From the NCBI GenBank assembly GCA_019912885.1, contig JAIOHV010000218.1:1-42272 (forward strand): DNA of 42,272 nucleotides, given 5' to 3'. A program made the position numbers and the translations under genes. This stretch comes from a bacterium. GTDB taxonomy: Bacteria > Lernaellota > Lernaellaia > JACKCT01. Shown here piece by piece: positions 11,797-41,525 of the stretch (within the stretch, counting starts at the first letter, position 1; the number at the start of each line of letters is the position of its first letter). Under the pieces are notes generated by a model. The model saw only the letters and a program-made list of their open reading frames with translations. It ran no database searches and was not told where the DNA came from.

Positions 11797-11812
11797 CCGC
11801 GCGGAGGACGAC

Positions 11813-15242: not shown

Positions 15243-15246
15243 CGCC

Positions 15247-24800: not shown

Positions 24801-25042
24801 CCTGGTTCTCCAATATCGGAAACGACCCGAACGCGAAATGCGGATGCTACAAGTCGTGCGACGATCTGGGCCGCATCAAGCATATGTACAACCGCGTTCG
24901 CGGCCTTTCGCGCACGCAGCTCGCCGTGCTCCGCGCGGCGCAAGTGTGGCTGCGCGCCACCGGCCAGTACATCGGGTCCGAAAAGATGCAGCCGCGGATC
25001 GAAAAGCGGCGGGCCGATGTCCGGGCACGTTTATCGGGATGA
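21869..25042 (+). CDS. fusion: GT4 glycosyltransferase and radical SAM/SPASM enzyme
   Basis: A 1057-residue protein of three parts. Residues 1 to about 385 are a GT-B glycosyltransferase of family 4, with FVKRGHNVRLMY, GPIVLYLGQLHGAQYAE and the donor-site helix SPLKVCEYLASGKAIVASNVG. Residues about 390-620 are a disordered linker rich in Ala, Pro and repeated Asn-Gly (NGNGNGS, NGNGKSNGNG). Residues about 625-1057 are a radical SAM domain with CX3CX2C (C669, C673, C676), GGGEP for SAM binding, and a SPASM-type cysteine region (PCTVGWQF, NINSCLKS, CGCYKSC). The fusion suggests a radical modification made on the sugar before or after transfer. The radical SAM part is closely similar to that fused to the carbamoyltransferase gene at 25637. 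The gene overlaps the next by 26 bp. Confidence 0.9.
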   Translation: MNILMLHPHDIYSNSEPWTVRITYLATEFVKRGHNVRLMYHLIDPRLDLKDATARQEYPFVTIPCYRHQMALIGKMRSVMEFARWADVIHFQKCFPHVSVPALWAGYRLGKPVHYDWDDWEFGIYNYNPMNRLVGASIETFERVLPRMADSVSVASEALRKMAIERGVPEARIFDGHVGADIDRFRPDIDGSRVREEHHIEGPIVLYLGQLHGAQYAELFLQAAKLVLDRGENPTFLVVGGGERFGELFQLAENYGVGHRVIFTGSVDHEVIPEYVAAADVAVACFADTPQVATKSPLKVCEYLASGKAIVASNVGEVPRMIGDAGVLVPAGDAPALADGIVQLLANKELRVRLSAKARQRAETEFNWGVTAENLLRAYDMILHETRLLYWKTGKDARSRSPFLVTPSGAPRGIPTSKWVKPPAAKTETAPIPAAKADPKKSGGGNGVPRGSTGGNGNGNGSREFVASAPAARPEKVDAKSASDAPGDGEKVPEGFVPVQFVTTKIKTSDAGGLAVATSETTAIPARETTPDAPSVHDEEKPRPSRLANGNGKSNGNGSARVPNGNGAANGKSTSNGSANGNDPNGGGENDPGTNGNAAKKRVDPFANKGARPPLPKIANPPKPLDYNLGPFAPLRGFIEANLDVVGVLDGRFAYIGPHTVQFDPTDMCPNDCIACWCRSPLLLDKLMPWEEQKQRLDLSILEDVLDDLVATGTKEIYIAGGGEPMAYPKILQLCESIKKRGLICNINTSFINVTKDVAHELARMKVDYMTVSVWAGTPETYVLTHPSKTEEAFWDLKEALTYLNEVKDVVPYIKTYHVLSNLNFHEMKKMVDFAIDTRSESIEWTLVDTMPDRTDSLLLSAEQSKWLYEEALRIKQWIVGDEKEARVHLFMFDQFLNRISGDHTTRGEHDRLVIDSMPCTVGWQFARVLANGNINSCLKSHRIPTGSLYQKRFMDIWTNEKQEEFREKTNVYTKADPWFSNIGNDPNAKCGCYKSCDDLGRIKHMYNRVRGLSRTQLAVLRAAQVWLRATGQYIGSEKMQPRIEKRRADVRARLSG
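23516..23541 (+). repeat. Asn-Gly linker repeat, copy 1
   Basis: A 26-bp stretch in the GT4-radical SAM linker, encoding part of NGNGKSNGNG, matches bases 39799-39824 in the giant radical SAM gene with a single mismatch (G or A in the middle Ser-Asn junction). Neighbouring linker DNA repeats the AACGGCAACGG theme several times. Confidence 0.8.
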
Positions 25043-25637
25043 CCGCGGCGGGCGGATGTTTCGCGTCCGCTGGCCGAACTTTCGCATCGAGCGCCCCGGG
25101 CGCATCGAGGATGAGGTCGCTCGTCTTCTCGCCGGGCGCCTTGTCGTCGGCGTCGTGTGGGGGCGATCGGAATTCGGACCCCGTGCGCTCGGTCGGCGCA
25201 GTATCCTGGCCGATCCCCGGTGGGACGGCATGCGCGATCACCTGAACGATCGCGTCAAGCACCGCCAGTGGTTTCGTCCGTATGCACCGGCCGTTCTCGC
25301 CGAACACGCGCGCGACTGGTTCGAACTCGATCACGAAAGCCCGCACATGCTGCTGGTCGCCACGGTGCGCGCGGACAAGCGCGAAATCGTCCCGGCGATC
25401 ACACACGTCGATGCCACCGCGCGCCCGCAGACGGTGCCGGAAGACGGGTCACGCTTGCGCGGCGTCGTCGAGGCATTTCATCGCATCACCGGCGTGCCGA
25501 TCGTATTGAACACGAGCTTCAACGATCACGGCGAGCCGATCGTGGAAACGCCGCTCGACGCGTTTCAGTGCTTCGCGGGGACGGAGCTCGACGCGATCGC
25601 CATCGGCGGCAACCTGCTTTTGAAAGAGACCGCGTGA
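25017..25637 (+). CDS. stand-alone carbamoyltransferase C-terminal domain (NodU/TobZ family)
   Basis: 206 residues matching only the C-terminal, YrdC-like half of NodU/TobZ O-carbamoyltransferases, the half that makes carbamoyl-adenylate from carbamoyl phosphate and ATP. The family motifs are FGPRALGRRSILADPR (near residue 55), FRPYAPAVL, HVDATARPQTV and VLNTSFNDHGEPIVETPLDA. The catalytic N-terminal half is missing from this gene but is encoded by the next one (25637), so the pair should form one enzyme from two chains. Because the halves are in reversed order relative to the normal protein, a simple frameshift cannot explain the split. The ATG lies inside the 3' end of the GT4-radical SAM gene. 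Confidence 0.88.
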   Translation: MSGHVYRDDRGGRMFRVRWPNFRIERPGRIEDEVARLLAGRLVVGVVWGRSEFGPRALGRRSILADPRWDGMRDHLNDRVKHRQWFRPYAPAVLAEHARDWFELDHESPHMLLVATVRADKREIVPAITHVDATARPQTVPEDGSRLRGVVEAFHRITGVPIVLNTSFNDHGEPIVETPLDAFQCFAGTELDAIAIGGNLLLKETA

Positions 25638-28456
25638 TGCCGCGATTTGTTCTTGGCACGGTCGTCTCCGACCACGACAGCGCCGCGTGCCTGCTCGCCG
25701 ACGGCAAGCTCGTGGCCGCGGTGAACGAGGAGCGCATCTGCCGCGTGCGTCGCGGGGATCGGCGCAATTCGATCCGCCGGGCGATGGGCGCGGTGCTCGA
25801 CGCGGCGGGCATCGAACTTGCCGGCGTGGATGCGATCTTCTGCGACACGGACCACTACTTTGCGCCGGGCGGCGCTCCCGTGCCCGTCTTTCCGGATTAC
25901 CCGCGCCCGGAGCGCATTTTTCAGATCACGCACCACGTCGGCCACGCCGCGAGCGCGTTTCTGGCGTCGCCGTTTGACGACGCGGCGTTCCTGACTGTGG
26001 ACGCCTCGGGCGGCATCGCGCCGGTCATCGCCGACGAGAACGACAAGCGCTACTGGAGTTTTTCGCCGCGCGAGCTCGATTTCATCGGGCGGGGTTTTCG
26101 CGCGGCGCACACGCACCCGAAACTCGACGAGTTGCTCACGCGGCTTCCTGGCGGCGAGGCGCGCAACTACCCCGCCGAAAGCCTGACGGCGGGATACGCC
26201 GTGCGCGGCAAGCCGATGGTGGAACTGTTCGACGCATTCGCGGAATCGTCGCTCGGCTACTTCTACGCCCTTTGCTCGCACCTTCTCGACATGGAAGAGG
26301 GCAGCTTCATGGGCCTGGCGAGCTACGGCCGGCCGGGGCCGATGGTCGAGGCGATGCGCGACGTTCTGCGCCTTCAGCCCGAAGGGCGGATTCGCATCGA
26401 CAAGTCGGCGATGGACTTCTGGCACGAAGCGTACGTGCTCGAAAATCCGACCGCGCTCTCGCGGCTGTCCACGCGCTTTTGCAAGACGTTCGGCCCGGGG
26501 CGCAAGTTCTTCGAGGCGATCACGCCGCGCCACATGGACTTCGCGTACGCCGCGCAAAAGCGCCTCGAGGACGCGATGGTCCACGTCGCGACGCACCTCG
26601 CGCGCGAGACGGGCCGAAAGAATCTCGTGCTGGCGGGCGGCGTCGCGCTGAATTCGGTCGCAAACGGCCTTGTGCTGCAAAAGACACCGTTCGATCGGAT
26701 CTTCATTCAGCCCGCCGCCTCGGACGACGGCCTTGCGCTTGGCAACGCGCTCTTTGGGCACTACGTACTCGAGAATCTGCCGCGCGCGCGCTTTTTCGAC
26801 ATGGGCGACGCCGCGCTCGGCCCGGATCGCGAGGACGAGGCGGACGCGTTCGTCGACGCGATCGCCGAGGGGAAACTGCCGGTGGAGTACGTCGATTCGC
26901 TGCCGTATGTCGATGGCGTGGATGTGCTCTGGAAAGGCGAGGGCGACGCCGAATACAGACGCGTCGCGATGGAGCGCATCTCGCCGCACCGGCACTTCGC
27001 GGAATTGCCGATCGGCCGCGCGGGCGGCGTGGAATACTATTTCGAGGTCCGCGCGAAAAATCCGATGGAGTACGCGAAACCGGTGCCGGCGATGGAGGCG
27101 GCGGTGGAGCGCAAACGCGCCGCCAACGACGATATCGATTTTTCCGGAGCGATCGGGAATATCGAGATCGTCGCATCCGGGGACGGGCACGGGCACGGGC
27201 AGGGGAGCGGCAACGGGGATTTGGTGCTGAAGCATCCCGAACCTGACCTGGCCGCCGATCCGCGTCGGCCGGCCGATCCGTTCGAGATGTTCCTTTACGA
27301 TCACCGCGATGTGGCCGGCATTCTCGACGGGCGCCGCGCGTTCGTGGGTCCGGAGCAGGTCGTTATCGATCCGACCAACCGCTGCGACAACAACTGCCTC
27401 GCGTGCTGGACGAAATCGCCGCTGCTCGGCCGCTTCTCCCCGCCCGAGGAGTGGCATCGTGAACAGATGCCCGCGGATGTCATGCACCGCACCATCGACG
27501 AACTGGCGGACCTTGGCACGAAGCGCATCCGCTTCACCGGCGGCGGCGAACCGTTCGTGCATCCGCAGATGATCGAGTTTCTGGAACACGTGAAGGCGCG
27601 CGGGATGATCGCCGCGTTGACGACGAATTTCACCGCGCTGACCGAAAAGAAAGTCGAGCGCATGGCCGGGATCGGCGTTGACGAGGTGACCGCGTCGATT
27701 TGGGCCGGCACCGCGGACATGTACGCGCGCAGCCATCCCGCCAAGACGCAAAAGACCTTCGAGAAAATCGAGCAGCTTTTGCGCCTGTTCTGCGCGAACA
27801 AGGCGCCGCACGCGCAAGTGATCGTCGCGAACGTACTGTTTTCGATGAATTACATGGAGGCGCGCGAGATGCTCGATTTCGCGCTTCGCGTAGGCGCGGA
27901 CGGCGTTTATTACGCGGTGGTCGATCCGGTCGCCGATCCGATGAACGGCCTTTTGCTCAACGCGAATCACCTTGGCGTCGTGCGCGCGCATCTTGTGGAG
28001 GTCGCCGAGCGCGTGGAAAAGATCAACCGCACGCGGCCACGCCCGTTCATCCTGGACAATTTTGAGGGCACGCTGCGCCGCGTGAACGCCACGGGCGCCA
28101 TAACGGGCGACTACGATCGCGTCGCGGTGGACGAGGTGCCCTGCTACATCGGCTGGATTTTCTGCCGCATCCTGACCGACGGCACGGTGGTGCCGTGTTG
28201 CCGGGGCGTGGAGATGCCGATGGGCAACTTGCACAAGCAGACGTTCACGGACATCTGGCGGGGAAAGGTGTACGACCACTTCCGCCAAATGGCGCTTGTC
28301 GAAAAGAAGACGCACCCATTTTTCCGGTCGATCGCCTGCCACCGCACCTGCGACAACCTGATGCACAACCAGGACGAACACCGGCGCATCGGCGCGCTCT
28401 CGGAAACGGAAAAGGAACATCTGGTGCGTTTTGTCGTGCGCGGGGAGGCCCGTTGA
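25637..28456 (+). CDS. fusion: carbamoyltransferase N-terminal domain and radical SAM/SPASM enzyme
   Basis: 939 residues. Residues 1 to about 385 are the Kae1-like N-terminal half of a NodU/TobZ carbamoyltransferase, which transfers the carbamoyl group: VVSDHDSAACLLADGKLVA, ITHHVGHAASAF (metal-binding His), FMGLASYG and LVLAGGVALNSVANG. The usual C-terminal half is absent and supplied by the preceding gene. A spacer with GHGHGQGSGNGD (about 515-528) leads to a radical SAM domain with CX3CX2C (C583, C587, C590), FTGGGEP and SPASM-type cysteines (PCYIGWIFC, VVPCCRG, CHRTC). The start is the ATG sharing one base with the previous stop; a GTG one codon earlier is an alternative. The long open frame upstream of it has no homology. 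Carbamoylation and a radical step are thus physically linked. Confidence 0.9.
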   Translation: MPRFVLGTVVSDHDSAACLLADGKLVAAVNEERICRVRRGDRRNSIRRAMGAVLDAAGIELAGVDAIFCDTDHYFAPGGAPVPVFPDYPRPERIFQITHHVGHAASAFLASPFDDAAFLTVDASGGIAPVIADENDKRYWSFSPRELDFIGRGFRAAHTHPKLDELLTRLPGGEARNYPAESLTAGYAVRGKPMVELFDAFAESSLGYFYALCSHLLDMEEGSFMGLASYGRPGPMVEAMRDVLRLQPEGRIRIDKSAMDFWHEAYVLENPTALSRLSTRFCKTFGPGRKFFEAITPRHMDFAYAAQKRLEDAMVHVATHLARETGRKNLVLAGGVALNSVANGLVLQKTPFDRIFIQPAASDDGLALGNALFGHYVLENLPRARFFDMGDAALGPDREDEADAFVDAIAEGKLPVEYVDSLPYVDGVDVLWKGEGDAEYRRVAMERISPHRHFAELPIGRAGGVEYYFEVRAKNPMEYAKPVPAMEAAVERKRAANDDIDFSGAIGNIEIVASGDGHGHGQGSGNGDLVLKHPEPDLAADPRRPADPFEMFLYDHRDVAGILDGRRAFVGPEQVVIDPTNRCDNNCLACWTKSPLLGRFSPPEEWHREQMPADVMHRTIDELADLGTKRIRFTGGGEPFVHPQMIEFLEHVKARGMIAALTTNFTALTEKKVERMAGIGVDEVTASIWAGTADMYARSHPAKTQKTFEKIEQLLRLFCANKAPHAQVIVANVLFSMNYMEAREMLDFALRVGADGVYYAVVDPVADPMNGLLLNANHLGVVRAHLVEVAERVEKINRTRPRPFILDNFEGTLRRVNATGAITGDYDRVAVDEVPCYIGWIFCRILTDGTVVPCCRGVEMPMGNLHKQTFTDIWRGKVYDHFRQMALVEKKTHPFFRSIACHRTCDNLMHNQDEHRRIGALSETEKEHLVRFVVRGEAR

Positions 28457-29412
28457 GCCGCGTCCTGATTACCGGCGGCGCGGGCTTCATTGGCCATCAT
28501 CTGGCGCGGCATATGCTGACGCGCGGGTGGTCGGTGGCCGTCATCGACAACGAAGCCACCGGCCGTCGGGAAGACGTGCCCCCGTCGTGCGACTACCTCA
28601 AAGGCGACGTTCGCAACGTCGCCGACGTGCGCGAGGCGTTTGCGACCCAACCGGACGTCGTTTTTCACTGCGCGGCGCAGGCGAGCAACATCCGGTCCTT
28701 CGACGATCCGCTCGCCGATCTGAATACGAATTTGCTGGGGACCGTGAACGTAACCCTGCAATGTATCGAACAAAAAGTGCCGAAGCTCGTGTACGCGGGT
28801 TCGATGACCGAGTATGGTGTCCTGAGCGCCCTGCCCGTGGGCGAGGCGCATCCTCTTGTGCCGATCTCGTATTACGGGGTCGGCAAGGCCGCGGCGGAAC
28901 ACTTTCTGATGGCGACCGCGAATCGCGTCGACCTGGGGGCGAAATTTTCCGTCACCGTGCCGCGGATGTTCAACGTGTACGGACCCGGACAGAGTCTGAC
29001 GAACCCCTATCAGGGCGTCCTTGCGATCTTCATCGGCCAGGTGCTGCGCGGCGAGCCGTGTACCGTGGACGGCGACGGAACGCAGTCGCGCGATTTCGTT
29101 TACGTCGACGACGTGTGCGAAGCGTGGGAGCGCATGTCGCGTCCCGGTGTTGCCGACAACACCGCCGTGAATCTCGGTTCCGGCGTTGAGCGCTCGGTCA
29201 ACGACCTGGTTCGCGAAGTGTGCCTGGCCGCGGGCAAGGACCCGGCGGTTTATCCGATCATGCGCCGGCCACGAAGGCCGGGCGATCAGGAGCGCTGCGC
29301 GGCGGACATCGCGCGCGCGAAGGAACGGCTCGGATGGGCGCCCGCGGTCACGTTCGCCGAAGGCCTCGCGCGCACGATGGCGTGGGCGCGCGCAAGCGGG
29401 GGGGGCGTCTGA
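28453..29412 (+). CDS. NAD-dependent sugar epimerase/dehydratase (extended SDR)
   Basis: 319 residues with the extended short-chain dehydrogenase fold. The NAD-binding motif is GGAGFIGHH (8-16) and the partner strand is VAVIDNEATGR. The catalytic Ser lies in YAGSMTEYG, and YYGVGK provides the Tyr-Lys pair. The C-terminal RDFVYVDDVCEAWERM and SDLAR-like AADIARAKERLGWAP are typical of nucleotide-sugar epimerases (GalE/WbpP group). It should prepare or epimerise a nucleotide sugar for the GT4 enzyme of this operon; the substrate is not identifiable. The start is a TTG in a TTGA overlap with the previous stop codon. The last base of its stop is the first base of the next ATG. Confidence 0.9.
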   Translation: MSRVLITGGAGFIGHHLARHMLTRGWSVAVIDNEATGRREDVPPSCDYLKGDVRNVADVREAFATQPDVVFHCAAQASNIRSFDDPLADLNTNLLGTVNVTLQCIEQKVPKLVYAGSMTEYGVLSALPVGEAHPLVPISYYGVGKAAAEHFLMATANRVDLGAKFSVTVPRMFNVYGPGQSLTNPYQGVLAIFIGQVLRGEPCTVDGDGTQSRDFVYVDDVCEAWERMSRPGVADNTAVNLGSGVERSVNDLVREVCLAAGKDPAVYPIMRRPRRPGDQERCAADIARAKERLGWAPAVTFAEGLARTMAWARASGGGV

Positions 29413-30500
29413 TGTCGCTTCTTTCCGGAATCAAGTCGCAGGTCATCAACATGCGGGCCTTCCGCCCGTTCTTCACGCCGCTTCGCGTCGCGCGCGACGC
29501 GATCACGTTCCCCGTCGATTACTACCTCGGCGACGGGCGCGTGCACGGCATGCCGAGCATCGTGAACCTGAACATCACGACGGTCTGCAATCTCAAGTGT
29601 CCGTTCTGTTTCAATAACGACATTCTCGGCAAACGCACGGAACTTTCGACGGCGGAAATGGTCGAACTTGTCGATCAACTCTCGAAGACCGGCGCGGGTT
29701 TGTTTCTCTCCGGCGGCGAGCCTTTCGCGCGCAAGGACATTTACGACATCATCGTCGAGGCCAAGCGGCGGGGCATGCCCGTCGGCGTCGTCACAAACGG
29801 CACGCTGTTGAAAGAGCCGCAGGTGACGCGCCTTCGCGACATCGGCCTTGACGTCGTCATCCTGAGTTTTCACGGCACGCGCGAGGCCCACAACAAGGCC
29901 GTGCTGATGGACGGCGCGTACGACAAGACGATGCACGCGCTCGACCTGTTCCGCGCCGCGTGGCCGTCGCCGGGGCCGATGATCAACTACGTCATCACCG
30001 CGGAGTCGCTGCCCCACCTGCCGGATTTCGTGCGGGAGCTCGACGGGCGCGACAACCTCGTCATGCGCCTGTCGCACCTGAACTTCGTGACGCCGACGGA
30101 AGCCGAGGCCAACCGTAACTACTGGATCGAAAACTTCGGCGAGGCGCCGGACAAGCTCCTGCACTTCCAATACGAGCCGCCCGAACGCATGTACGAGCCG
30201 ATCCTCGACATCCTCGAAAAGAATCGGGAGATCTTCACCAAGCCGGTGTTGAACGCGGACGAGATGAAGACCTGGTACAGCCCGAAGTTCGACCTCGACC
30301 GCCGGTGCGTTTTCATCTGGCGTTCGACGTACGTGAACTCCGACGGCGACGTCTATCCCTGCCAGTTCCTCTACATGAAGATGGGGAACATCAAGGAGAA
30401 GCCGCTCGCCGAGATCTGGAACGGCGAACGCTACCGCCGCTTCCGCGCGCTCCTGCGCAAAGGACTCACTCCCGGCTGCGCCCGGTGCTGCAAGCTTTGA
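29412..30500 (+). CDS. radical SAM/SPASM protein
   Basis: 362 residues. After a 50-residue N-terminal extension, the radical SAM core has CX3CX2C (C59, C63, C66, in CNLKCPFCF), FLSGGEPFARKD for SAM binding, and VVTNGTLL. A SPASM-type C-terminus has RCVFIWRST, NSDGDVYPCQF and the end GCARCCKL, suggesting at least one auxiliary iron-sulfur cluster. It differs in its core motifs from the modules fused to GT4 and to the carbamoyltransferase (CPFCFNN here, CXACW there), so it is probably not a recent copy of them. The substrate is unknown; context suggests the sugar or lipid product of the operon. Translation starts at the ATG overlapping the epimerase stop by one base. Confidence 0.9.
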   Translation: MSLLSGIKSQVINMRAFRPFFTPLRVARDAITFPVDYYLGDGRVHGMPSIVNLNITTVCNLKCPFCFNNDILGKRTELSTAEMVELVDQLSKTGAGLFLSGGEPFARKDIYDIIVEAKRRGMPVGVVTNGTLLKEPQVTRLRDIGLDVVILSFHGTREAHNKAVLMDGAYDKTMHALDLFRAAWPSPGPMINYVITAESLPHLPDFVRELDGRDNLVMRLSHLNFVTPTEAEANRNYWIENFGEAPDKLLHFQYEPPERMYEPILDILEKNREIFTKPVLNADEMKTWYSPKFDLDRRCVFIWRSTYVNSDGDVYPCQFLYMKMGNIKEKPLAEIWNGERYRRFRALLRKGLTPGCARCCKL

Positions 30501-30504
30501 CGGC

Positions 30505-32211
30505 ATGATCGTTCTCGGCATCTCCGACAACCACGGAGCCGGGGCGGCCGTCGTCATCGACGGGCGCCTCGTCGCCGCCGTCAACGAAGAACGCATCGAC
30601 CGTGAAAAAAATTCGATGGCCTTCCCGTGGGGCGCCATCGACGCATGCCTTTCCATCGCGGGGGTGACTCCGGACGATGTCGATCTCGTCGCGGTCGGCA
30701 GTGAGTTCACGCCGATTTTCGGCCTTCGCCTCGTGAAGGGCTGGCATCGGCGCGTCAAACGAAGCGCCGGCCAGTTCAGCTTCCTGTTCGATCTGTACAT
30801 CATGTACCACCTGCTGGCGCGGGCCATTTCCGTGTTGCGTTCCATCGAAATTCGCCTGTCGCGCTGGTGGATCGGGCGCGGCTTGCGCGCGCACGGCTAT
30901 GACTGCGACGTCCAGCTTTTCGATCATCACCTGTGCCACGCCTGGTCCGTGTACCTCACCGCGCCATTTGACGACGCGGCGGTCGTCACCGCGGACGCGA
31001 TGGGCGACGGCCTGTCCGCAACCGTGTCGATCGCCTGCGCCGGGCGCGTATCCCGCATCTTCGCCCAGGATGGCCGCTGCGCGTTCAACCCGTATTACTC
31101 GCGCATTACCGAATACCTCGGTTTCATCCCGAACCGGCACGAGGGCAAGGTCACGGGCCTCGCGGCGTACGGCGATCCGTCGTTGCTACTCGACGAATTC
31201 GAAAAGAGTGCGCATTTTCGCGGGCCGGGTTTTTCGACGTTTCGCGTCTGGATGCCGAACCCGCGCGCGTGGGGGCTTTATCGAAAAATTCGCGGCCACA
31301 GGCGCGAGGACATCGCGGCCGCCTGCCAGCGCAACCTCGAGGCGCAAATGGGCAGGTTCGTTTCCCGATGGCTTGAGCGCACCGGCAAGTCGCGCCTCGC
31401 GCTCGCGGGCGGCATCTTCGAGAACGTCAAGTTGAATCAGCGCCTGCACGAGCTTTCGGGCGTGCAGGAAATCTACATCTTCCCGAACATGTCCGACGGC
31501 GGCCTCGCGACCGGCGCGGCGCTTGGCGCTTCGCGCCGCGGTCGAAAGACTCTCGAGACGCCCTATCTCGGCATGGCGTACGGCGAGGACGAATTGGAGG
31601 CGGCGATCCGCGACGCCCGGCTCGAACACGAGCGGCCCGACGATCTCGCGACGGCGGTGGCGCGGCTTGTCGCCGATCGCAAGATCGTGGCGCGTTTCGA
31701 CGGCGGCATGGAATACGGCCCCCGCGCGCTCGGACACCGGTCGATCCTTTTTCGCCCGGACGACCCGTCGGCCAACGACTGGTTGAACGAGAAACTGCGC
31801 CGCAGCGAGTTCATGCCATTCGCGCCGGCGGTGCGCGCCGAGCGGGCGCCGGACCTGTTTGTGGGGATCGCCGGCGCCGAATTCACGGCGCGCTTCATGA
31901 ATATCTGCTTTGACTGCACGGACGAGATGAAAACGAAGTGCCCGGGCGTCGTCCACGTGGACGGCACGGCGCGCCCGCAGGTGTTCAAGAGGGCCGAAGA
32001 CGCGCTATACTATGATATTCTGGCGCGTTTTGAGGATCTGACGGGTTTGCCGGCCATCCTCAACACGAGCTTCAATATGCACGAGGAGCCGATCGTCGCC
32101 ACGCCGCGGGATGCGATCCGGGCTTTCCTCGCCGCCGGGCTCGACGCGCTCGCGCTCGGCCCGTTCCTGGTTCGTCCGCGGCGAAAGGCAGCGAATGTCG
32201 ATGTTCATTAA
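30505..32211 (+). CDS. complete NodU/TobZ-family carbamoyltransferase
   Basis: Transfers a carbamoyl group from carbamoyl phosphate, via carbamoyl-adenylate, to a hydroxyl of a sugar or small molecule. The 568 residues are the normal length, with both halves. The N-terminal Kae1-like domain has ISDNHGAGAAVVIDGRLVA, FDHHLCHAWS, VTGLAAYG and LALAGGIFENVKLNQ. The C-terminal YrdC-like domain has YGPRALGHRSIL, FMPFAPAV, HVDGTARPQ and LNTSFNMHEEPIVATP. It is therefore a second carbamoylation system beside the split one at 25017-28456. An insert (about 70-125, with a hydrophobic stretch FSFLFDLYIMYHLLA) is unusual and may touch the membrane. The 3' end overlaps the next gene by 17 bp. Confidence 0.93.
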   Translation: MIVLGISDNHGAGAAVVIDGRLVAAVNEERIDREKNSMAFPWGAIDACLSIAGVTPDDVDLVAVGSEFTPIFGLRLVKGWHRRVKRSAGQFSFLFDLYIMYHLLARAISVLRSIEIRLSRWWIGRGLRAHGYDCDVQLFDHHLCHAWSVYLTAPFDDAAVVTADAMGDGLSATVSIACAGRVSRIFAQDGRCAFNPYYSRITEYLGFIPNRHEGKVTGLAAYGDPSLLLDEFEKSAHFRGPGFSTFRVWMPNPRAWGLYRKIRGHRREDIAAACQRNLEAQMGRFVSRWLERTGKSRLALAGGIFENVKLNQRLHELSGVQEIYIFPNMSDGGLATGAALGASRRGRKTLETPYLGMAYGEDELEAAIRDARLEHERPDDLATAVARLVADRKIVARFDGGMEYGPRALGHRSILFRPDDPSANDWLNEKLRRSEFMPFAPAVRAERAPDLFVGIAGAEFTARFMNICFDCTDEMKTKCPGVVHVDGTARPQVFKRAEDALYYDILARFEDLTGLPAILNTSFNMHEEPIVATPRDAIRAFLAAGLDALALGPFLVRPRRKAANVDVH

Positions 32212-33790
32212 CGGACCCGGCGCGAACGGCCGCGCCAACGGCGCGCGCGAGCCAGGGGCGTCCGCGCGGCCCGTGGACATCCTTTTGTTCTCGCCACCGC
32301 CGTGGCTGGTGACCGGCCCGCCGCTGGGGCTTGCCGCGTTGTCCGCCTGGCTTCGCGGGCGCGGCTGGAATGTCGCGGTCATCGACGGCAACACGCGCGC
32401 CTATCACAAGACGGACACGTCGCTGCGCCCGCTATGGCTGTGGGACAACAGCGCGTTCTGGGAAGATCCCGAACCGGTCGAGGTGAAATTCGGCCCCCTT
32501 CTGCGCGAATTGGCGGACGAGGTCGCGACGCATCGCCCGCGCGTTCTCGGCATCAACGTCGTTTCGCGAAAAGAAGCGGCGAGCGCCATCTTCCTTGCAC
32601 GCCTGAAGGAGCGCTTGCCCGATCTCAAGGTCTTCGTCGGCGGGCCCGGAGCGGGCTGGCGCGAGTCGCGCGATCACATCCGCCAGCTTTGCGGCGATCT
32701 CGTGGACGGCTTCATCGTCGGCGAGGGGGAGCTGGCCTGCGACGAGTTGCTGAGGCGCCTGCGCGACGGTGCGCCGCTCGCGAATCTGCCGGGGTTCGTG
32801 TCCGGACGCCCCGACGGCGAGGAGTGCGTCATCCCGGGGCATTTCATCACGGATATGAACCAGCTTCCGATCCCCGACTTCTCCGATTTCCGCCTCGCGG
32901 ATTACGAGGAGCAGGGGCTCGTCGTCGAGTGGAACCGCGGGTGCGTCGCGCGGTGCACGTATTGCAGCATCAACGATTACTGGAACGCGTTCCGCTTCAA
33001 GGCGCCCGAAAAGGTCGCCGACGAGTTGCGTACGCTGCACGAGCGCCACGGCATTTCGCGCTTCACGATCGTCGATCCGATGGTCAACGGCGATCCGGAA
33101 TTGCTCGATGCGATCTGCGACGCGATCGTCGCGACAGGCATCCATGTGAAATGGTCCGCGGGCATCTCGCCCAATCGTATTGTGGGCAAATCCACGTTCG
33201 AAAAAATGAAGGCCGCGGGCTGCTTCAAGCTTGAGTTCGGCGTCGATTCCGGCAGCCGCACGATGCTTCGCAAGATGGGCAAGCGCTTCAAGCCCGACGA
33301 GGCCGGCCAGATGATGCGCGACTGCAAGGACGCCGGTATCCAGGTGATGCTCTACCTCATCGTCGGCTTCCCCGGCGAAACGGACGAAACGGTGCAGGAG
33401 ACGTGCGACTGGCTCGATCGATGGGGGGGCGCGGTCGATATGATCCGCAATCTTTGCAGCCTGACGATTGAATACGGCACCGCCATCGAAAAGCGCGCCG
33501 ACCTGTTCGGCGTCGAGTTCGACCGTCACGACGTGCAGTGGAAGGACAACTGGCAGGGCAAGGGCGACGACACGCCGCTGCGCCGCGCGATGCGCGTGCG
33601 CAAGGTGATCGACAAGGTGCACGATCTCGGTATTCCGATCGAAACCGAGGTCATCACGGATCCCGAACACGCGACGCACGACGAACACGGCCAGTGGGCC
33701 GGCGGCGAGGGCGCGTCCGACGCCCAAAAGGTCGCGCAGCCGCGCAGCTCGATCATGTGCGCGTCGTTCCCCACGGGTTCGCAGTCGTGA
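32195..33790 (+). CDS. cobalamin-binding-type radical SAM protein (stand-alone module)
   Basis: 531 residues. An N-terminal tail rich in Asn-Gly (MSMFINGPGANGRANGA) precedes a B12-binding-type Rossmann domain (about 25-190; ILLFSPPPWLV, GLAALSAWLRGRGWNVAVIDGN, FIVGEGELACDELL). The radical SAM core has CX3CX2C (C250, C254, C257, in RGCVARCTYC), IVDPMVNGDPELLDA and IVGFPGETDETV. The domain lacks the DXHXXG cobalamin motif, as do many class B family members. Such enzymes usually methylate unactivated carbons or phosphorus, or rearrange rings. It is closest to the second module of the next gene (shared DPMVNXDP and WSAGXSPNR). Two Met codons (32195 and 32201) are possible starts. It overlaps the giant gene by 4 bp (GTGA). 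Confidence 0.88.
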   Translation: MSMFINGPGANGRANGAREPGASARPVDILLFSPPPWLVTGPPLGLAALSAWLRGRGWNVAVIDGNTRAYHKTDTSLRPLWLWDNSAFWEDPEPVEVKFGPLLRELADEVATHRPRVLGINVVSRKEAASAIFLARLKERLPDLKVFVGGPGAGWRESRDHIRQLCGDLVDGFIVGEGELACDELLRRLRDGAPLANLPGFVSGRPDGEECVIPGHFITDMNQLPIPDFSDFRLADYEEQGLVVEWNRGCVARCTYCSINDYWNAFRFKAPEKVADELRTLHERHGISRFTIVDPMVNGDPELLDAICDAIVATGIHVKWSAGISPNRIVGKSTFEKMKAAGCFKLEFGVDSGSRTMLRKMGKRFKPDEAGQMMRDCKDAGIQVMLYLIVGFPGETDETVQETCDWLDRWGGAVDMIRNLCSLTIEYGTAIEKRADLFGVEFDRHDVQWKDNWQGKGDDTPLRRAMRVRKVIDKVHDLGIPIETEVITDPEHATHDEHGQWAGGEGASDAQKVAQPRSSIMCASFPTGSQS

Positions 33791-36700
33791 ACGCCCGCGA
33801 GGCCAAGTCCATCGAGTTCCCGAAACACTTGATGGTCCAGACGGTCTCGCGCTGCAACAGCGGGTGCGTCATGTGCCCGTGGCCCGATACCGCAAAGACG
33901 CAGGCCCAGGGCGAGATGGACGACGCGGTGTACGCGCGCCTCGTGGACGAGGTGAAGCGCTTCCCCGATCTGTCGCGCGTTCTGCTCTATCTGATGAACG
34001 AGCCGACGCTCGACAAAAAGCTCCCCGCGCGAATCGAAATGATGCGCCGCGCGTTGCCGCACGCGGAGATCTACATCATCACGAACGGCCTGTTGCTTGA
34101 CGGCGACTTCGGCGAGCGGCTGATCGACTCGGGTCTGTCCTGGCTGGGCATCTCCATCCACGCGCTCGAACCGGACACCTACGAAAAAATCACCGGGCGC
34201 AAGGACTGGGCGACGGCGCGGCCGAGGCTCGAACGTTTCATCGACCGCGCCCTCGCGGTGCGTGGCGATAATTTCATCCAGGTGAACATCACCAAGGTGC
34301 GCCCGCACATCACACCCGGGGAATACGCCCGCGCCGCCGAACATTGGCGTGAGATCGGCGTGACGCGCGTGGACCTCGACGACGGCTACATCTCCCGCGC
34401 GGGCAGCGTGCCGGTTTACGGACACGAGCGCGCGTACACGCCGCGCACGTCCGGTTGCAAGACGATCTGGGCGTACAAAATGGCGCACGTGTTGTTCAAC
34501 GGCGATGTCATTCCCTGCTGCATGGACTGGCGGCGCAAGGTCGTGTTCGGCAACGTCGCCCGCGACGGCGGCCTGGCGGCGGTGTGGCGCGGCGAAGGGC
34601 GCGCGCGATTTCTCGATGCGCTCGGAAGCGGCGAGCGCCTCCCCGACGAATTTCTTTGCGTGAGTTGCGAGGACGCCATTCCCGCCGAGGGCGCCAACCT
34701 CGCCCAGGATCGCGATCTTTCCGTTGCCGCGACCGGCCCCCATCCAGGCGCCGGGGATTTCGTCGCGGTCAACTTCATCGGCAAGCCGAACGTGCCGATT
34801 GACACGCGCGACGCGGAACCCGAAACGCCGGGTTGCGATGTCAGTGCCGCGAGCGATAGCGAGCGGTCGGTCGCGAACCCGCGCCCGCTTCCGCCTAACG
34901 CCGGCGACGATTCGCCGGCGAGCTACGATCTTGGCGACGCGGTGACGATTGACCCGGCCGCGCCCGTCGGTCCGGCGACCGAAATGGAGGCCGCGGAAGA
35001 CGGCAACGCGGATGCGCTCTTTTTCCTTCCGCCGCCGTGGCAGGTATCGGCGCCGCCGCTCGGCATCGGGGCGATCACCGGCTACCTGCGCGAAAAGGGC
35101 TGGCGGGTGAAGGTGCTCGACGGCAACGTGCGGCTTTACAACATGTCCGATCCGCCCAAGCGCAACCTTTGGGATTGGGAACGCGGTCCGTTCTGGGAAG
35201 GCGAGGAACAGGTGGACGCCGCGTTCGGTGACGATCTGCGCACGCTCGCGGAAGAAGCCGCCGCGTCCGGCGCGAAGGTCTTCGGCATCAACATGGTCTC
35301 GCGCAAGGAGGTGCCGACGCGAATCTTCCTGAAGCGCCTGAAAGAGCTTGCGCCGGATTCGTTCGTTTTTGTCGGCGGCCCGCATGCCAGCCATATCGAC
35401 CTGCGCCGCCACGTGACGTCGTTCCTGCACGAGTTCATCGACGGATTCCTCGTCGGCGAAGGCGAAGCCGTCATGGAGGCGCTGTTGACGCGCATCCGCG
35501 AGGGGCGCGACATCCTCGATTGCCCCGGACTTGCGCGCTGGGATCGCGTGGAAGGCGAGGAGACGCTGAACGCGCCCGCGTTCTTCCCCGACCTCGCCGC
35601 GTTGCCGCCGCCGGATTTCCGCGATTTCGACGCGAACGCCTACGGCTCGCCCGCGCTTGTCGTCGAGTGGAGCCGCGGATGCGTCGGGCGTTGCACGTTC
35701 TGCAACATCCCCGACCTCTGGCAGGACGCGCGCTACAAGCCCGCCGCGAACGTCGTCCGCGAACTTCGGACGCTCGTCGAACGTCACGGCACGAAAATCT
35801 TTTCTGTCGTCGATCCGATGGTGAACAACGACCCGGCGATGCTCGAGGCGATCTGCGACGGCATCATCGAGGCCAACCTCGATGTCACGTGGTCCGCGGG
35901 CATGTCGCCAAACCGCCCGCTGACCGCCGAACAATTCCACAAGATGAAGCAGGCGGGGTGCTATCGCCTGGAGTTCGGCGTCGAGTCCGGCTCCGATCGC
36001 GTGCTGCGCCGGATGAACAAATATTACGACGCCGCCGAGGCCGGGCGCATGCTGCAAGACGCGCACGCGGCGGGGATCGACGTGGTCATCTACCTCATCG
36101 CGGGCTTCCCGGGCGAGACGGACGAGGACGTCGAGGCGACGCTGCGTTTTCTCGAGGAAAACCGCGAGTCGATCGGGCTGGTGCGCAGTTTGAACGGCCT
36201 TGTCATCATCCACGGCACGCCGATTGAGAAGAAATCTCACGTTTTTGGCATTGAACCGATCGACCGACTGGAGAATGGTTGGACCAATCACTGGGTTTCA
36301 GGTGACAATACGCCGGATTTACGCGCAAAACGCGTGGCTCGTATCGAACGTAAGCTCCATGAGCTCGGCATACGGATCGAGTTCCAGAACACGGAAGACG
36401 TGATGCCAAGCGAGATGCTCTACGCGAAGAAGATCGAGGATACGCAATCCCGGCTCGACGCGGTCGGCGCCGAGTTGATCGCGCTGATGGGCCGCGTGGA
36501 CAAGGTTTTGCGCGGCGAGCCGGTGCGCGAGGTTCCGGGCCACAACGAGGTCGCACTCGTGCTCTGCCCGGTTTGGGGCGTGGACATGCCGCCGCTCGGC
36601 ATGGCGACCGTCGCGGGCTTCATGCGCAATCAGGGCTACGACCCGCTCGTGGTCGATCTCAATATCGAGTTGTATCAGGCCGCGTCTCCGGCGCTTCGGC

Positions 36701-39700
36701 GCTTCTTCGAGGAAGACAGCTTCCGCCACTGGACGGATGAAGACTCGTGCCGGCGCATCGTCGCCGCGTTTTCGCGGCCGATCGACGCCGCCGTGGCGCG
36801 CATCATCGAGTCCGGCCGGCGTGTCGTCGGCTTCACCGTCTATTCGCCCAATCGCCTGTTCACGATCGAGGTGATGCGCCGGCTGCGCCGCGCGAATCCC
36901 GAGATCATCCACATCATCGGCGGGCGCGGCATCCAGACCGAAAACGAGCGGCGCCTGTTCCCGCACGATCTCGTCGACCACTTCGTGATCGGCGAAGGCG
37001 AGGTGACGTTCATTCCGCTTCTCGAACGCATTTTTCGCGGTGGCGACCCCACGGGCCTGCCCGGCACGGATCGTTTCGTCGGCCGCGATCTGGCGGGATA
37101 CACGCCGCGCCCGCGCCTGTCCGACCTGACGCTCCTGCCGCCGCCGGCGTACGATCTGTTCCCGCTCGACGCCTATCGCGGCGAGGATCTGCCCGTGCAG
37201 TTTTCGCGCGGGTGCGTCGCGTTTTGCACGTTCTGCAACGACAACAATCGCAACACGGGCTTCCGCACCCGGCCGGGAAGCCACATCGCCTCCGAGCTTC
37301 GGCACCTTGTCGAAACCACGGGACGCAAAAGCTTCCGCTTCAACGACCTGCTCATCAACGGCGACCTCCAGGTTCTCGAGGAGCTGTGCGACGACCTGAT
37401 CGCGATGGACCTCGGCATCCGCTGGATTGCGCTCTTCCAGCCGCGCGGCGACATGACGGGCGAGCTGCTGCAAAAGATGGCCACGGCCGGCTGCTATACC
37501 CTGAACATGGGCGTGGAGTCCGGCTCGGACCGCGTTCTGAAGCGCATGGGCAAGGGCTTCCGCGTCGACGACATGGAGCGCGCGCTCAAGCAGGCGCGAA
37601 GCGCCGGCATCAACACGATGCTCAACTTCTTCGTCGGCTTCCCGGGCGAGCAGGAAGAAGACGTCGACATCACCATCGACTTCATCCGCCGCAACCGCGA
37701 GTGGATTTGCGGCATCACCTCGCTGAACTCGTGCATCCTCCTCGAGGACGCGCCGATCGAGAAGAACTGGCACAAGCTCGGCATCGAGTTCGACGACTAC
37801 GCGACGCGCGACGTCGGCTGGCGCCTCGGCGACAACACGCCCGAGGTGCGCATGGCGCGCCTCGCGAAGCTCACCGCGGCGGTCAAGGAGCTTGGCCTGC
37901 CGATCGTGGTGACCAACGCGGCCGAACGCGCGGCGGATATCGACGTGCTGCCCGAGCCCGTCGCGGAACCGGAGATCTTCGAGGAAGAAACGACCGTCGT
38001 GGGCGCGAATCTGCTTTCGACGATGGCGACGTGCGCGCCGGCGCTTGACGATTTCGACCCGTCCAAGGGTGAGCCGCGCTGGGAGACGGTGCCGGCGGAT
38101 TTCGCGCACGTCATGCTCATCAAGTGCCCCGTTTGGGGCGTCGATGTGCCGCCTTTGGCGATCGCGTATCTCGCGCAGGTCTCCCGCGACGCCGGGTTCA
38201 AGGTTGTCGCGGTCGATATGAACGTGAAGATCCACAACCGCTGCCACGATCGTTCGCTCTGGCGCATGGACCGCTACAAGGAGTGGGCCGATCCGGAGTT
38301 CTTCCCGGCGACTTACGAATCGCTGTGGGAGCTGACCGAACATTACCTGAAACAGATCGCCGCGCACCCCGCGAGGCTCGTCGGGTTCTCCGTTTGCACG
38401 TCGAACTACCTTTTTACGATGGAAACCGCGCGGCGCCTCAAGAAGTTGGCGCCCGAAAAGGTCATCGTGTTCGGAGGCCCGGCGATCACCAACAGCTTCG
38501 ACGTGCAGACGCTCACGCCCGCGGACGGCGACTACCTGTTCTTCGGCGAGGGCGACGTCGGTTTTCCGGAGATCGTCAGCGCGGCCAACGAGAATCGCGC
38601 GCCGAAGGACGTCTACGGCCTGGTGAAGATCGGCACGAGCTTCACGTACGACAGCGTCGATCGCGCGCTCGTCAAGAAGGGCACGTCGATCCCCACGCCG
38701 ACGATGGAAGAGCTGAACGTCAACGAATACACCGGCACCGCGATTCCGCTTTTGGGCAGCCGAGGGTGCGTTCGCAAGTGCACGTTCTGCAACGACCACC
38801 AGATCTATCAGAAGTACCGCCACCGGCCCGCGAAGGAGATCTTCGCGGATATGGAGTGGCACGTGCTCCATCGCGGCGCGCACCACTTCACGTTCCTCGA
38901 CCTCTTGATGAACGGCCACGTCGGGGTGCTTGAGGAGTTCTGCGATCTCATCCTCGAGAAGGGCTATCAGGTCGCCTGGGGCGGGCAGTGCATCATCCGC
39001 AAGGAGATGACGCTCGAGCTGCTCTCCAAGATGCGCAAGGCCGGGTGCATGAGCATCGTGTACGGCATCGAGAGTTTCAACAACAAGGTCCTTCGCGTGA
39101 TGCGCAAGTACTACACGCAGGAGCTGGCGAAAGAAGTCCTCGGCAACACCGTGAAGGCGGGAATCGAACCGATCATCAACATCATCTGCGGCTTCCCGGG
39201 CGAAGGCGAGGAGGAATTCCTCGACACCTACAACTTCATCCGCGACAACCGCGACATCATCGGCCAGGTCGCCTCCGTCTCGCCGTGCCTCGTGAATCTC
39301 GGCAGCGAGCTTTTTGAGCGGTTCGAGGATTTCGACATTCGTTTCGCGCCCGAAGGCGGGTCCGTCAAATGGTTCACGGCCGACGGCTCGAACACATACG
39401 AAAAGCGCCTCGAGCGCGTCATCCGCGTCACGTCGCTTCTGGCCGAGCGCAACAAGCACATCCACACGGTGAACATTTACGACGAGGCCGACCGCGATCA
39501 GCGCGACGTCGCCGACAACGCCGCCCGCGAACGCGCGCGTATGGAAAAGATTCGGCGCGAGGCCGAAGCGGCTCTGGCCCGCGAAGCCGGCGGCGAGGCG
39601 GCATCCGTGGAATCGACCATCGACTTTGATTCATTGTCGCCCGAAGCGCGCGAGGCGCTCGCCAACGGCCTTGCCACCGCGGCGCTGGCGACCGACGTCA

Positions 39701-41292
39701 ACCGTTCGTTGTCGGAAAAGGCCGCGCGTGTTCCGCGTCGCATGGCGATGGCCGAGCACATCGGTCATGGGGACGACGCAAACGGCAAGACCGGAAACGG
39801 CAACGGCAAGTCAAACGGCAACGGCCATTCGGACACGGACGCCGGCCCGCTCGACGCGATGTTGCTGCTCGCGCCGCCGTGGGGCGTGAACTTCCCGCCG
39901 ATGGGCATTGCGTCCATCGCGACCGCCGCGCGCGAAAAGGGATTCGCGGTCGTCGCGCGCGACCTGAATGTGGAGTGTTACGCGTCGTGCGACGAGCGCC
40001 TCAAGCGCTGGTGGGAGCCCGAGAACCTCAAGTTCTGGCAACCGGGCGAAAAGTTCGACGCGGTGGCAAAGGCGGTCGAACCGCGCGTCGATGCGTTCAT
40101 CGGCGAGGTGAAGCGGCGCAAGCCCCGCGTCGTCGGCCTTTCGACCAACGAATCGAACCTGCCGTTCTCCTGCCGCGTTGCTCGCCGCGTGCGCGAGGTG
40201 TTGCCGGACGCCAAGATCATCCTCGGCGGGCCGGGCACGGCCTGGCCGGTCGATCGGCAAAAGCTCGTCGGCGAGGCGTTCGACGCGGTGATGCTCGGCG
40301 AGGGCGAGTTGAACTTTCCGCGCTTTCTTTCGGCGCTGCGCGACGGTGAGGATCTCTCGGAACTTCCGGGCATCGAGTGGATGTCCGACGATCCGGAAAA
40401 GATTTGCCGCAAACCGACGATCGACGAAACGGTGCGCCCGCTCGATCAGATCCCCGTGCCGTTGTTCGACGATTTCAACCTCGACCTCTACCGCACGCGG
40501 CAGTTGCCGCTGATGATGGGGCGGGGATGCGTCAACCGCTGCACGTTCTGCAACGATCCGCAAATCACGCCGAAGTACCGATACCATTCCGCCGAAAAGA
40601 TGCTGGAGATCGTGAAGTTCTACCAGGACCGCTACGGCGTGACGGACTTCCAGTTCAACGATCTGCTCATCAACGGCTACCTCAAGAACCTGCGGCGCTT
40701 CGCGGAGCTCGTCATCGAGAACAACGTCGAAATGCACTACTCCGGCCAGGCGATCATCGACACGCGCATGGACGACGAAACGCTGCTTTTGCTTCAGCAG
40801 TCCGGTTGCACGAGCCTGGTGTTCGGCGTGGAGAGCTTTTCGGACAAGGTGCTCGGCCTCATGAAAAAGGGCTTCACCGCGGCCGAGGCGCGCGAGGTCA
40901 TGGAACGCTGCACACGCGCCGGCATCAAGGTCATCGTCAACCTCATCGTCGGCTTCCCCGGCGAGACGGAAATCGAACTGACCGAGACGATGGATTTCCT
41001 GCGCGAGAACCGCGATCTCATCGACAGCATCTCCGCCCTGTCCGCGTGCATCGTCACGGCGCAAAGCCCGCTCGAAAACGATCCGAAGCGATTCGGCATC
41101 GTTTTGCCCAAGCCGGAGCACTGGTGCCAGTGGTATTCCGAGGACGGTATGAATACTTACGAAGTGCGTCAAAAACGCCTGTATCGCATGTTGAAGCTCA
41201 TCGAAGAACTTCGCATTCCACACGGGATGACAAACCGCTATTTGGAGATGGTCGGTGCCGAACCGGCCGTCGCCGCCCCGCCGATCGCCTGA
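33787..41292 (+). CDS. giant 2501-residue protein with five radical SAM domains (one SPASM-type, four cobalamin-type)
   Basis: One uninterrupted frame of 2501 codons starting at a GTG in a GTGA overlap. Module A (1-300) is a SPASM-type radical SAM domain: C23, C27, C30; GDVIPCCMDW; LCVSCED. Modules B (about 409-920), C (921-1440), D (1441-1900) and E (2023-2501) each have a B12-binding-type domain opening with a P-X-W pattern and PP(L/M)(G/A), a GEG(E/D) turn, then a radical SAM core. Cluster cysteines are 632/636/639, 1143/1147/1150, 1661/1665/1668 and 2248/2252/2255. Every module keeps the FPGE segment and a tail like GDNTPXXRXXR or DGXNTYEXRXXR. Linkers are acidic or helical (about 1900-2000) or Asn-Gly-rich (NGNGKSNGNG, about 2005-2015). 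Expected mass is near 275 kDa with at least five [4Fe-4S] clusters. It could run an assembly line of successive radical methylations on one substrate. I know of no characterised protein with this architecture. Confidence 0.88.
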   Translation: MNAREAKSIEFPKHLMVQTVSRCNSGCVMCPWPDTAKTQAQGEMDDAVYARLVDEVKRFPDLSRVLLYLMNEPTLDKKLPARIEMMRRALPHAEIYIITNGLLLDGDFGERLIDSGLSWLGISIHALEPDTYEKITGRKDWATARPRLERFIDRALAVRGDNFIQVNITKVRPHITPGEYARAAEHWREIGVTRVDLDDGYISRAGSVPVYGHERAYTPRTSGCKTIWAYKMAHVLFNGDVIPCCMDWRRKVVFGNVARDGGLAAVWRGEGRARFLDALGSGERLPDEFLCVSCEDAIPAEGANLAQDRDLSVAATGPHPGAGDFVAVNFIGKPNVPIDTRDAEPETPGCDVSAASDSERSVANPRPLPPNAGDDSPASYDLGDAVTIDPAAPVGPATEMEAAEDGNADALFFLPPPWQVSAPPLGIGAITGYLREKGWRVKVLDGNVRLYNMSDPPKRNLWDWERGPFWEGEEQVDAAFGDDLRTLAEEAAASGAKVFGINMVSRKEVPTRIFLKRLKELAPDSFVFVGGPHASHIDLRRHVTSFLHEFIDGFLVGEGEAVMEALLTRIREGRDILDCPGLARWDRVEGEETLNAPAFFPDLAALPPPDFRDFDANAYGSPALVVEWSRGCVGRCTFCNIPDLWQDARYKPAANVVRELRTLVERHGTKIFSVVDPMVNNDPAMLEAICDGIIEANLDVTWSAGMSPNRPLTAEQFHKMKQAGCYRLEFGVESGSDRVLRRMNKYYDAAEAGRMLQDAHAAGIDVVIYLIAGFPGETDEDVEATLRFLEENRESIGLVRSLNGLVIIHGTPIEKKSHVFGIEPIDRLENGWTNHWVSGDNTPDLRAKRVARIERKLHELGIRIEFQNTEDVMPSEMLYAKKIEDTQSRLDAVGAELIALMGRVDKVLRGEPVREVPGHNEVALVLCPVWGVDMPPLGMATVAGFMRNQGYDPLVVDLNIELYQAASPALRRFFEEDSFRHWTDEDSCRRIVAAFSRPIDAAVARIIESGRRVVGFTVYSPNRLFTIEVMRRLRRANPEIIHIIGGRGIQTENERRLFPHDLVDHFVIGEGEVTFIPLLERIFRGGDPTGLPGTDRFVGRDLAGYTPRPRLSDLTLLPPPAYDLFPLDAYRGEDLPVQFSRGCVAFCTFCNDNNRNTGFRTRPGSHIASELRHLVETTGRKSFRFNDLLINGDLQVLEELCDDLIAMDLGIRWIALFQPRGDMTGELLQKMATAGCYTLNMGVESGSDRVLKRMGKGFRVDDMERALKQARSAGINTMLNFFVGFPGEQEEDVDITIDFIRRNREWICGITSLNSCILLEDAPIEKNWHKLGIEFDDYATRDVGWRLGDNTPEVRMARLAKLTAAVKELGLPIVVTNAAERAADIDVLPEPVAEPEIFEEETTVVGANLLSTMATCAPALDDFDPSKGEPRWETVPADFAHVMLIKCPVWGVDVPPLAIAYLAQVSRDAGFKVVAVDMNVKIHNRCHDRSLWRMDRYKEWADPEFFPATYESLWELTEHYLKQIAAHPARLVGFSVCTSNYLFTMETARRLKKLAPEKVIVFGGPAITNSFDVQTLTPADGDYLFFGEGDVGFPEIVSAANENRAPKDVYGLVKIGTSFTYDSVDRALVKKGTSIPTPTMEELNVNEYTGTAIPLLGSRGCVRKCTFCNDHQIYQKYRHRPAKEIFADMEWHVLHRGAHHFTFLDLLMNGHVGVLEEFCDLILEKGYQVAWGGQCIIRKEMTLELLSKMRKAGCMSIVYGIESFNNKVLRVMRKYYTQELAKEVLGNTVKAGIEPIINIICGFPGEGEEEFLDTYNFIRDNRDIIGQVASVSPCLVNLGSELFERFEDFDIRFAPEGGSVKWFTADGSNTYEKRLERVIRVTSLLAERNKHIHTVNIYDEADRDQRDVADNAARERARMEKIRREAEAALAREAGGEAASVESTIDFDSLSPEAREALANGLATAALATDVNRSLSEKAARVPRRMAMAEHIGHGDDANGKTGNGNGKSNGNGHSDTDAGPLDAMLLLAPPWGVNFPPMGIASIATAAREKGFAVVARDLNVECYASCDERLKRWWEPENLKFWQPGEKFDAVAKAVEPRVDAFIGEVKRRKPRVVGLSTNESNLPFSCRVARRVREVLPDAKIILGGPGTAWPVDRQKLVGEAFDAVMLGEGELNFPRFLSALRDGEDLSELPGIEWMSDDPEKICRKPTIDETVRPLDQIPVPLFDDFNLDLYRTRQLPLMMGRGCVNRCTFCNDPQITPKYRYHSAEKMLEIVKFYQDRYGVTDFQFNDLLINGYLKNLRRFAELVIENNVEMHYSGQAIIDTRMDDETLLLLQQSGCTSLVFGVESFSDKVLGLMKKGFTAAEAREVMERCTRAGIKVIVNLIVGFPGETEIELTETMDFLRENRDLIDSISALSACIVTAQSPLENDPKRFGIVLPKPEHWCQWYSEDGMNTYEVRQKRLYRMLKLIEELRIPHGMTNRYLEMVGAEPAVAAPPIA
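39799..39824 (+). repeat. Asn-Gly linker repeat, copy 2
   Basis: Second copy of the 26-bp linker sequence found at 23516-23541, one mismatch apart. It encodes part of NGNGKSNGNG in the linker between modules D and E of the giant radical SAM protein. Confidence 0.8.
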
Positions 41293-41402: not shown

Positions 41403-41525
41403 TCGTGTAATTTCGTAATGCTGTGCGACTTATGCCGTATATTTTTCGTCTATTCATTTGAATAATTTATATATATTCTGGCAGCGTCGAAAAATTCGCG
41501 CTTGCGCAAGAAAAAGGAGCAAACA
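41403..41525 (+). promoter_or_regulatory. AT-rich upstream region of the secreted-protein gene
   Basis: Base composition drops sharply here compared with the rest of the window, with the minimum around 41430-41480 (several TATAT and ATTTTT runs, including TATATT at 41472-41477). It is the likely promoter zone for the gene at 41526, but I cannot pick one -35/-10 pair with confidence. An AAGGAG ribosome-binding site is at 41514-41519, six bases before the ATG. Confidence 0.4.

Follow-up and report, generated by a model that had tools for sequence, protein, structure and literature searches.

Five radical SAM cores in a single polypeptide

The window, by which we denote the whole 42,272-nucleotide stretch of DNA analysed here, encodes in one uninterrupted frame a protein of 2501 residues (giant A) that carries five radical SAM cores, four of them of the cobalamin type. 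On the forward strand the frame runs from a GTG at 33787 to a TGA at 41292 without internal stop, remaining open upstream to 33472, and there is a 4-nt overlap between its GTG start and the stop of the preceding gene. Along the chain there are five CX3CX2C motifs (residues 23, 632, 1143, 1661 and 2248) and four GFPGE motifs (residues 773, 1284, 1802 and 2389), and a Pfam search with the full protein returned five Radical_SAM domains, four B12-binding domains and one SPASM domain, the BtrN-like SPASM module being placed first and the four B12-binding radical SAM modules after it. The signature of the radical SAM superfamily, a CX3CX2C motif inside a Radical_SAM domain, is present five times. 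Clearly, the size, the number of cores and their types all agree with what a preliminary description of this DNA had proposed, and we consider it practically certain that giant A is one intact five-core chain. The protein and its modules are distributed as follows:

33787..41292, forward strand: giant A, five-core radical SAM protein, 2501 aa (ORF, motifs, Pfam; one ORF in 6/7 phylum genomes)
33787..34704, forward strand: module A1, aa 1-306, radical SAM/SPASM, BtrN-like (Pfam Radical_SAM and SPASM; BtrN match)
34999..36501, forward strand: module A2, aa 405-905, B12-binding and radical SAM, core CVGRCTFC at aa 632 (motif, Pfam, tree)
36502..38031, forward strand: module A3, aa 906-1415, B12-binding and radical SAM, core CVAFCTFC at aa 1143 (motif, Pfam, AlphaFold2 model)
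38074..39591, forward strand: module A4, aa 1430-1935, B12-binding and radical SAM, core CVRKCTFC at aa 1661 (motif, Pfam, tree)
39823..41289, forward strand: module A5, aa 2013-2501, B12-binding and radical SAM, core CVNRCTFC at aa 2248 (motif, Pfam, tree)

Conservation and origin of the five-core arrangement

We have compared seven genomes (G000-G006) from three families (f1, f2 and f3) of FEN-1099, which is the GTDB name for Ca. Lernaellota (PMC13248872, PMC11382960); the window is an entire contig from a 4.8-Mb genome, 99% complete. The order of the five cores is identical in all seven genomes and six of them encode the protein as one ORF, with stop-to-stop lengths of 2363-2606 aa, so that the arrangement is far beyond chance. 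Frame breaks between the modules, which the preliminary description had held would speak against a single chain, are found in one assembly only (G002), where giant A is split into several frames; since the neighbouring genes are broken likewise, these breaks look like uncorrected indels. A search of 60 relatives at E <= 1e-60 recovered giant A in all six other genomes of its class and gave no match outside that class. In a sample of some 380 genomes from beyond the class, matches at E <= 1e-50 came from four, and none of these had five cores.

The comparison of G000 with G001 evidences a pattern of coding constraint in the modules (position 3 > 1 > 2) and a pronounced divergence of the linkers (0.74 and 0.59 amino acid difference), and in spite of this fast linker change the inter-module junctions are free of stops in six genomes. 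Within the window, modules A2-A5 have a mutual identity of only about 31-36%. In trees comprising the seven genomes, A3, A4, A5 and the modules B1-B3 of a second giant protein (see below) each form one clade with 100% support, and the A2 positions form one clade within which the stand-alone gene at 32111-33790 (S) is nested. Since each module position constitutes a clade of its own, the fusion is, to judge from these trees, ancestral and older than the families of the phylum, and its modules are old and distinct, not recent copies. All three core cysteines are retained in 47 of 47 B12-type modules of the seven genomes, and A1 keeps its three core cysteines and five further ones in every genome, in agreement with the earlier claims that the catalytic cysteines persist throughout and that no module looks decayed; the accompanying claim that FPGE is kept in every module was too broad, as this motif belongs to the four B12 modules and is naturally lacking in the SPASM module.

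Module folds and predicted chemistry

Module A1 has its core (CNSGCVMC) at residues 23-30 and extra cysteines at positions 224, 244, 245, 291 and 294, a set that would fit one auxiliary Fe-S cluster. Its closest solved relative in a PDB search is BtrN, the butirosin 2-deoxy-scyllo-inosamine dehydrogenase (E 9e-15), which matches over two stretches corresponding to the core and to the SPASM-like end; the Pfam SPASM domain and the five invariant extra cysteines give A1 the core plus C-terminal auxiliary-cluster cysteines of BtrN-like SPASM proteins. The AlphaFold2 model of A1, computed from a two-row alignment, is poor (pLDDT 54), and the SPASM fold thus rests on sequence. Unlike A1, which is distant in sequence and fused at the head of giant A, BtrN is a free-standing aminocyclitol enzyme.

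The class 1 cobalamin-dependent radical SAM enzymes, such as OxsB, TsrM, TokK and CysS, have a Rossmann B12-binding domain followed by the radical SAM domain (PMC13331322). The same domain layout is predicted for A2-A5: for A3 it is present in the AlphaFold2 model (pLDDT 83.9, pTM 0.83), and for A2, A4 and A5 it is assigned by homology. The top PDB fold matches of the A3 model are OxsB, TsrM, MgmA, AprD4, CysS and TokK, at an identity of only about 14-19% to the class 1 structures. These enzymes have a single core, whereas giant A strings together four such modules and a SPASM module. We have also analysed a position that marks class 1 enzymes, namely the residue that lies beneath the cobalt, in the loop following strand 3 (OxsB N186, TokK W76, TsrM R69). 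In a profile alignment, which is distant in view of the low identity to OxsB, the position of OxsB Asn186 is occupied by Tyr in A3 (7/7), by Asn in A5 (6/7) and by mixed residues in A2 and A4, which hints that the modules may be chemically specialised.

AprD4, a radical SAM 1,2-diol dehydratase with an aminoglycoside substrate, is matched by A3 in sequence as well as in fold; it differs in having a single core, and the modules of giant A score far below the curated AprD4 cut-off. AprD4 has the B12-binding fold yet works without cobalamin, and consequently this fold is not in itself proof of cobalamin binding. When A2-A5 were scored singly against NCBIfam, no curated equivalog cut-off was reached, and no curated NCBIfam model fits the five-core architecture.

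Gene neighbourhood

The genes that precede giant A in the window are the following:

32111..33790, forward strand: stand-alone B12-binding radical SAM protein, at most 559 aa, A2 paralogue (Pfam, tree; overlaps giant A by 4 nt)
30505..32211, forward strand: O-carbamoyltransferase of the GdmN/NovN/TobZ/NodU type (Pfam Carbam_trans_N and C; PDB GdmN 8e-67, TobZ 1e-58)
29412..30500, forward strand: radical SAM/SPASM protein (Pfam)
28453..29412, forward strand: NAD-dependent sugar epimerase/dehydratase (Pfam Epimerase 8e-51)
25628..28456, forward strand: carbamoyltransferase N half fused to radical SAM/SPASM (Pfam; in 7/7 genomes)
25017..25637, forward strand: carbamoyltransferase C half, separate small gene (Pfam Carbam_trans_C 7e-63)
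21869..25042, forward strand: GT4 glycosyltransferase fused to radical SAM/SPASM (Pfam; in 7/7 genomes)
9983..21723, forward strand: lipid A/Kdo genes LpxD, LpxA, oxidoreductase, LpxI-like, porin-like, PAP2-LpxB, MsbA-like, GT39/ArnT-like and KdtA (Pfam, sequence reading)

The O-carbamoyltransferase, with the Kae1-like N domain and the YrdC-like C domain of its GdmN, NovN and TobZ relatives, adjoins giant A in all seven genomes, and the stand-alone A2 paralogue does so in G000 and G001 only. In families f1 and f2 giant A is preceded by the GT4-SPASM fusion, the split carbamoyltransferase and the epimerase; in f3, giant A and its carbamoyltransferase are located apart from the block of the GT4-SPASM and carbamoyltransferase-SPASM genes and from the Lpx genes. 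The SPASM protein of the 29412..30500 type is near the giant cluster in G000, G002 and G003 and is found within the GT4-SPASM block in f3. A PDB sequence search with the radical SAM part of the GT4-SPASM fusion gave no match. The lipid A/Kdo genes are directly upstream of the cluster in G000-G002, their order being kept in G001 and G002; since in f3 giant A lies away from the Lpx genes, the link to LPS is direct only in f1. Within the lipid A region, a PAP2 phosphatase and LpxB are encoded as one 612-aa ORF (15247-17085), and downstream of giant A a secreted-looking protein (41502-42272) ends at the contig edge within a threonine-repeat tract.

Other multi-core radical SAM proteins

A second protein of this kind, giant B, is about 1950-2100 aa long and ends in a C-terminal SPASM module, ahead of which there are three B12-radical SAM modules. 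This four-core form is present in G000, G001, G003, G004 and G006, a three-core form occurs in G005, and the gene is broken in G002. The representative from G000 is located as follows:

G000:C169:57327-63539 (L049:2327-8539): giant B, 2064-2070 aa, three B12-radical SAM modules and C-terminal SPASM module

In module B2 of this protein GAPCE replaces GFPGE. Other radical SAM proteins of the phylum include a chain of 1183 aa bearing two radical SAM/SPASM domains of the CxxxCxxCW type (G000:C178:2867-6418, L002), which has relatives elsewhere in the phylum, another two-core ORF on G000:C176, and a protein of 1015 aa that combines a single B12-radical SAM module with a long C-terminal region (L047:3780-6827, G003:C132). 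There are 90 radical SAM matches genome-wide in G000, more than 12 of which fall within 25 kb (G000:C48:1-25000; L005, L006).

Elsewhere, homologous modules occur singly or in different combinations. In a second phylum, two genomes have single ORFs with three B12-radical SAM cores (1497 and 1542 aa), and a third has a frame-broken one; the trees place the modules of the 1497-1542-aa chains as A3-like, as A4- or A5-like (with weaker support) and as B3-like. Two genomes of this phylum also encode a free-standing A1 homologue of 292-297 aa. In one of its members, G389, two adjacent three-core chains (C18, L087:8132-17135) follow genes for a Wzm/Wzt-type ABC exporter (the Wzm permease by sequence reading), a flavin oxidoreductase, a WecA-like protein and a GT4 protein, and a 1505-aa chain of the same genome joins relatives of the GT4-SPASM (46%) and carbamoyltransferase-SPASM (40%) domains of the window. 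This operon and the links between SPASM and carbamoyltransferase domains therefore place the giants, the SPASM fusions and the carbamoyltransferases in what would be one surface-glycan pathway.

Homologues with three or more cores, whose existence the preliminary description had made a point to be checked, are thus found in giant A itself (7/7 genomes), in giant B and in the three-core chains of the second phylum. The same description had regarded tandems of even two cores as rare, which is not upheld for two, as FbiC (FO synthase, a CofG-CofH fusion) has two radical SAM cores that each generate their own 5'-deoxyadenosyl radical in one pathway (PMC11917521), but stands for three or more: in the open-access literature we found no description of radical SAM proteins with three or more cores, and no described family with the five-core architecture came to light. 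FbiC resembles giant A in having more than one core per chain. However, its two cores come without cobalamin domains or SPASM and make the F420 precursor FO, and giant A matches it neither in sequence nor in architecture; no FbiC, CofG or CofH model is among the best 25 NCBIfam matches of giant A.

Proposed function and alternative readings

At the level of sequence, several observations point to sugar chemistry, namely the match of A1 to BtrN, the presence of AprD4 among the matches of A3 and the carbamoyltransferase that adjoins giant A throughout the phylum, and a probable glycan context is pointed to by the Lpx/KdtA genes upstream in G000-G002, the GT4-SPASM fusion in 7/7 genomes and the Wzm/Wzt operon of the other phylum. 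The reading we favour, which we regard as an evenly balanced call, is that giant A is a multi-step radical tailoring enzyme for a cell-surface glycan, with carbamoylation by its partner. A BtrN-like SPASM module acting as a dehydrogenase would be followed, in fixed order, by four modules of the class 1 cobalamin type with an OxsB/TsrM/CysS-like fold, A1 oxidising one alcohol and A2-A5 most likely carrying out C-methylations or related C-C chemistry with cobalamin and SAM. The substrate would be the sugars of a surface glycan, either LPS core or O-chain or an exported polysaccharide, which the partner O-carbamoyltransferase would carbamoylate, and the GT4-SPASM fusion, the carbamoyltransferase-SPASM fusion and giant B would act in the same tailoring pathway. 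We infer the use of cobalamin, the reactions, the shared substrate and the order of action; the fusion of the modules would hold several oxygen-sensitive steps together at the same glycan intermediate.

A different kind of substrate has to be considered. The four B12 modules might be iterative peptide C-methyltransferases of the TIGR03975 (rSAM_ocin_1/ApyD) type, maturing a ribosomal precursor, and indeed this model scores highest in NCBIfam, both for the whole chain (554.8 bits) and for every B12 module. However, the single modules reach only 129.2-164.0 bits, about half of the curated cut-off of 281.85, and the whole-chain score is the sum over four sub-threshold modules, so that we have rejected membership of giant A in this family. 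No conserved intergenic small ORF was found at a distance of up to 5 kb from giant A, and the small-ORF matches across genomes fall inside or antisense to larger genes (a distant precursor is conceivable), and the neighbours are glycosyl- and carbamoyltransferases, with no peptidases or leader-recognition proteins; RiPP maturation is thus quite improbable. Action on a membrane lipid, by B12-radical SAM chemistry of the hopanoid or ladderane type, would agree with the lipid A genes upstream and with weak matches to TIGR04072 (ladderane) and to the HpnJ/HpnR models, but these scores are far under the cut-offs and inspection by eye near the giants revealed no ketosynthase, acyl carrier or terpene genes, which makes it very doubtful.

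Other readings concern the chain itself. The fusion could bundle independent enzymes for the sake of stoichiometry, co-folding or a shared electron supply, each acting on a different free intermediate with no hand-over, and the flexible, fast-changing linkers, the single or otherwise combined modules found elsewhere and the stand-alone A2 duplicate of f1 are all compatible with it. Nevertheless, the phylum-wide constancy in the number and order of modules and the recurrence of three-core chains in another phylum exceed what random fusion would give, and we hold such bundling to be unlikely. That separate genes were joined by assembly, or that single enzymes arise in the cell by cleavage of the protein or by re-initiation, could be argued from the fact that genome assemblies are the only data and from the inter-module breaks of G002, but these breaks also affect neighbouring genes and a single frame is kept in six independent assemblies, on the basis of which we have rejected the assembly artefact; repeat collapse is unlikely because the modules are only about 31-36% alike. 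Altogether, we consider a spurious or processed fusion extremely improbable.

Within the reading of giant A as a glycan-tailoring enzyme, we tentatively put forward a more specific hypothesis, which may well prove wrong: the five-core and four-core chains could be modular megaenzymes that work as an assembly line comparable to NRPS and PKS systems, where one carrier-bound glycan intermediate is decorated at one radical and cobalamin site after another, in modules chemically specialised by position, and one whole phylum and a second one would build their envelopes in this way. Action on one substrate fits the fixed module order, the constant partners and the occurrence of three-core homologues in a polysaccharide operon.

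Significance

Work on radical SAM enzymes normally deals with proteins of one core per chain, and the described multi-core precedent that we found, FbiC, has two. The parts of giant A are known; it is the five-core arrangement that is new to us, FbiC being the nearest described precedent found. If the proposed reading is correct, multi-site radical catalysis would be a recurring design, realised in five-core, four-core and three-core chains, and channelling, electron supply and cobalamin loading along a single chain would become testable questions. Ca. Lernaellota would then be predicted to carry an undescribed surface glycan that is heavily radical-modified and carbamoylated.
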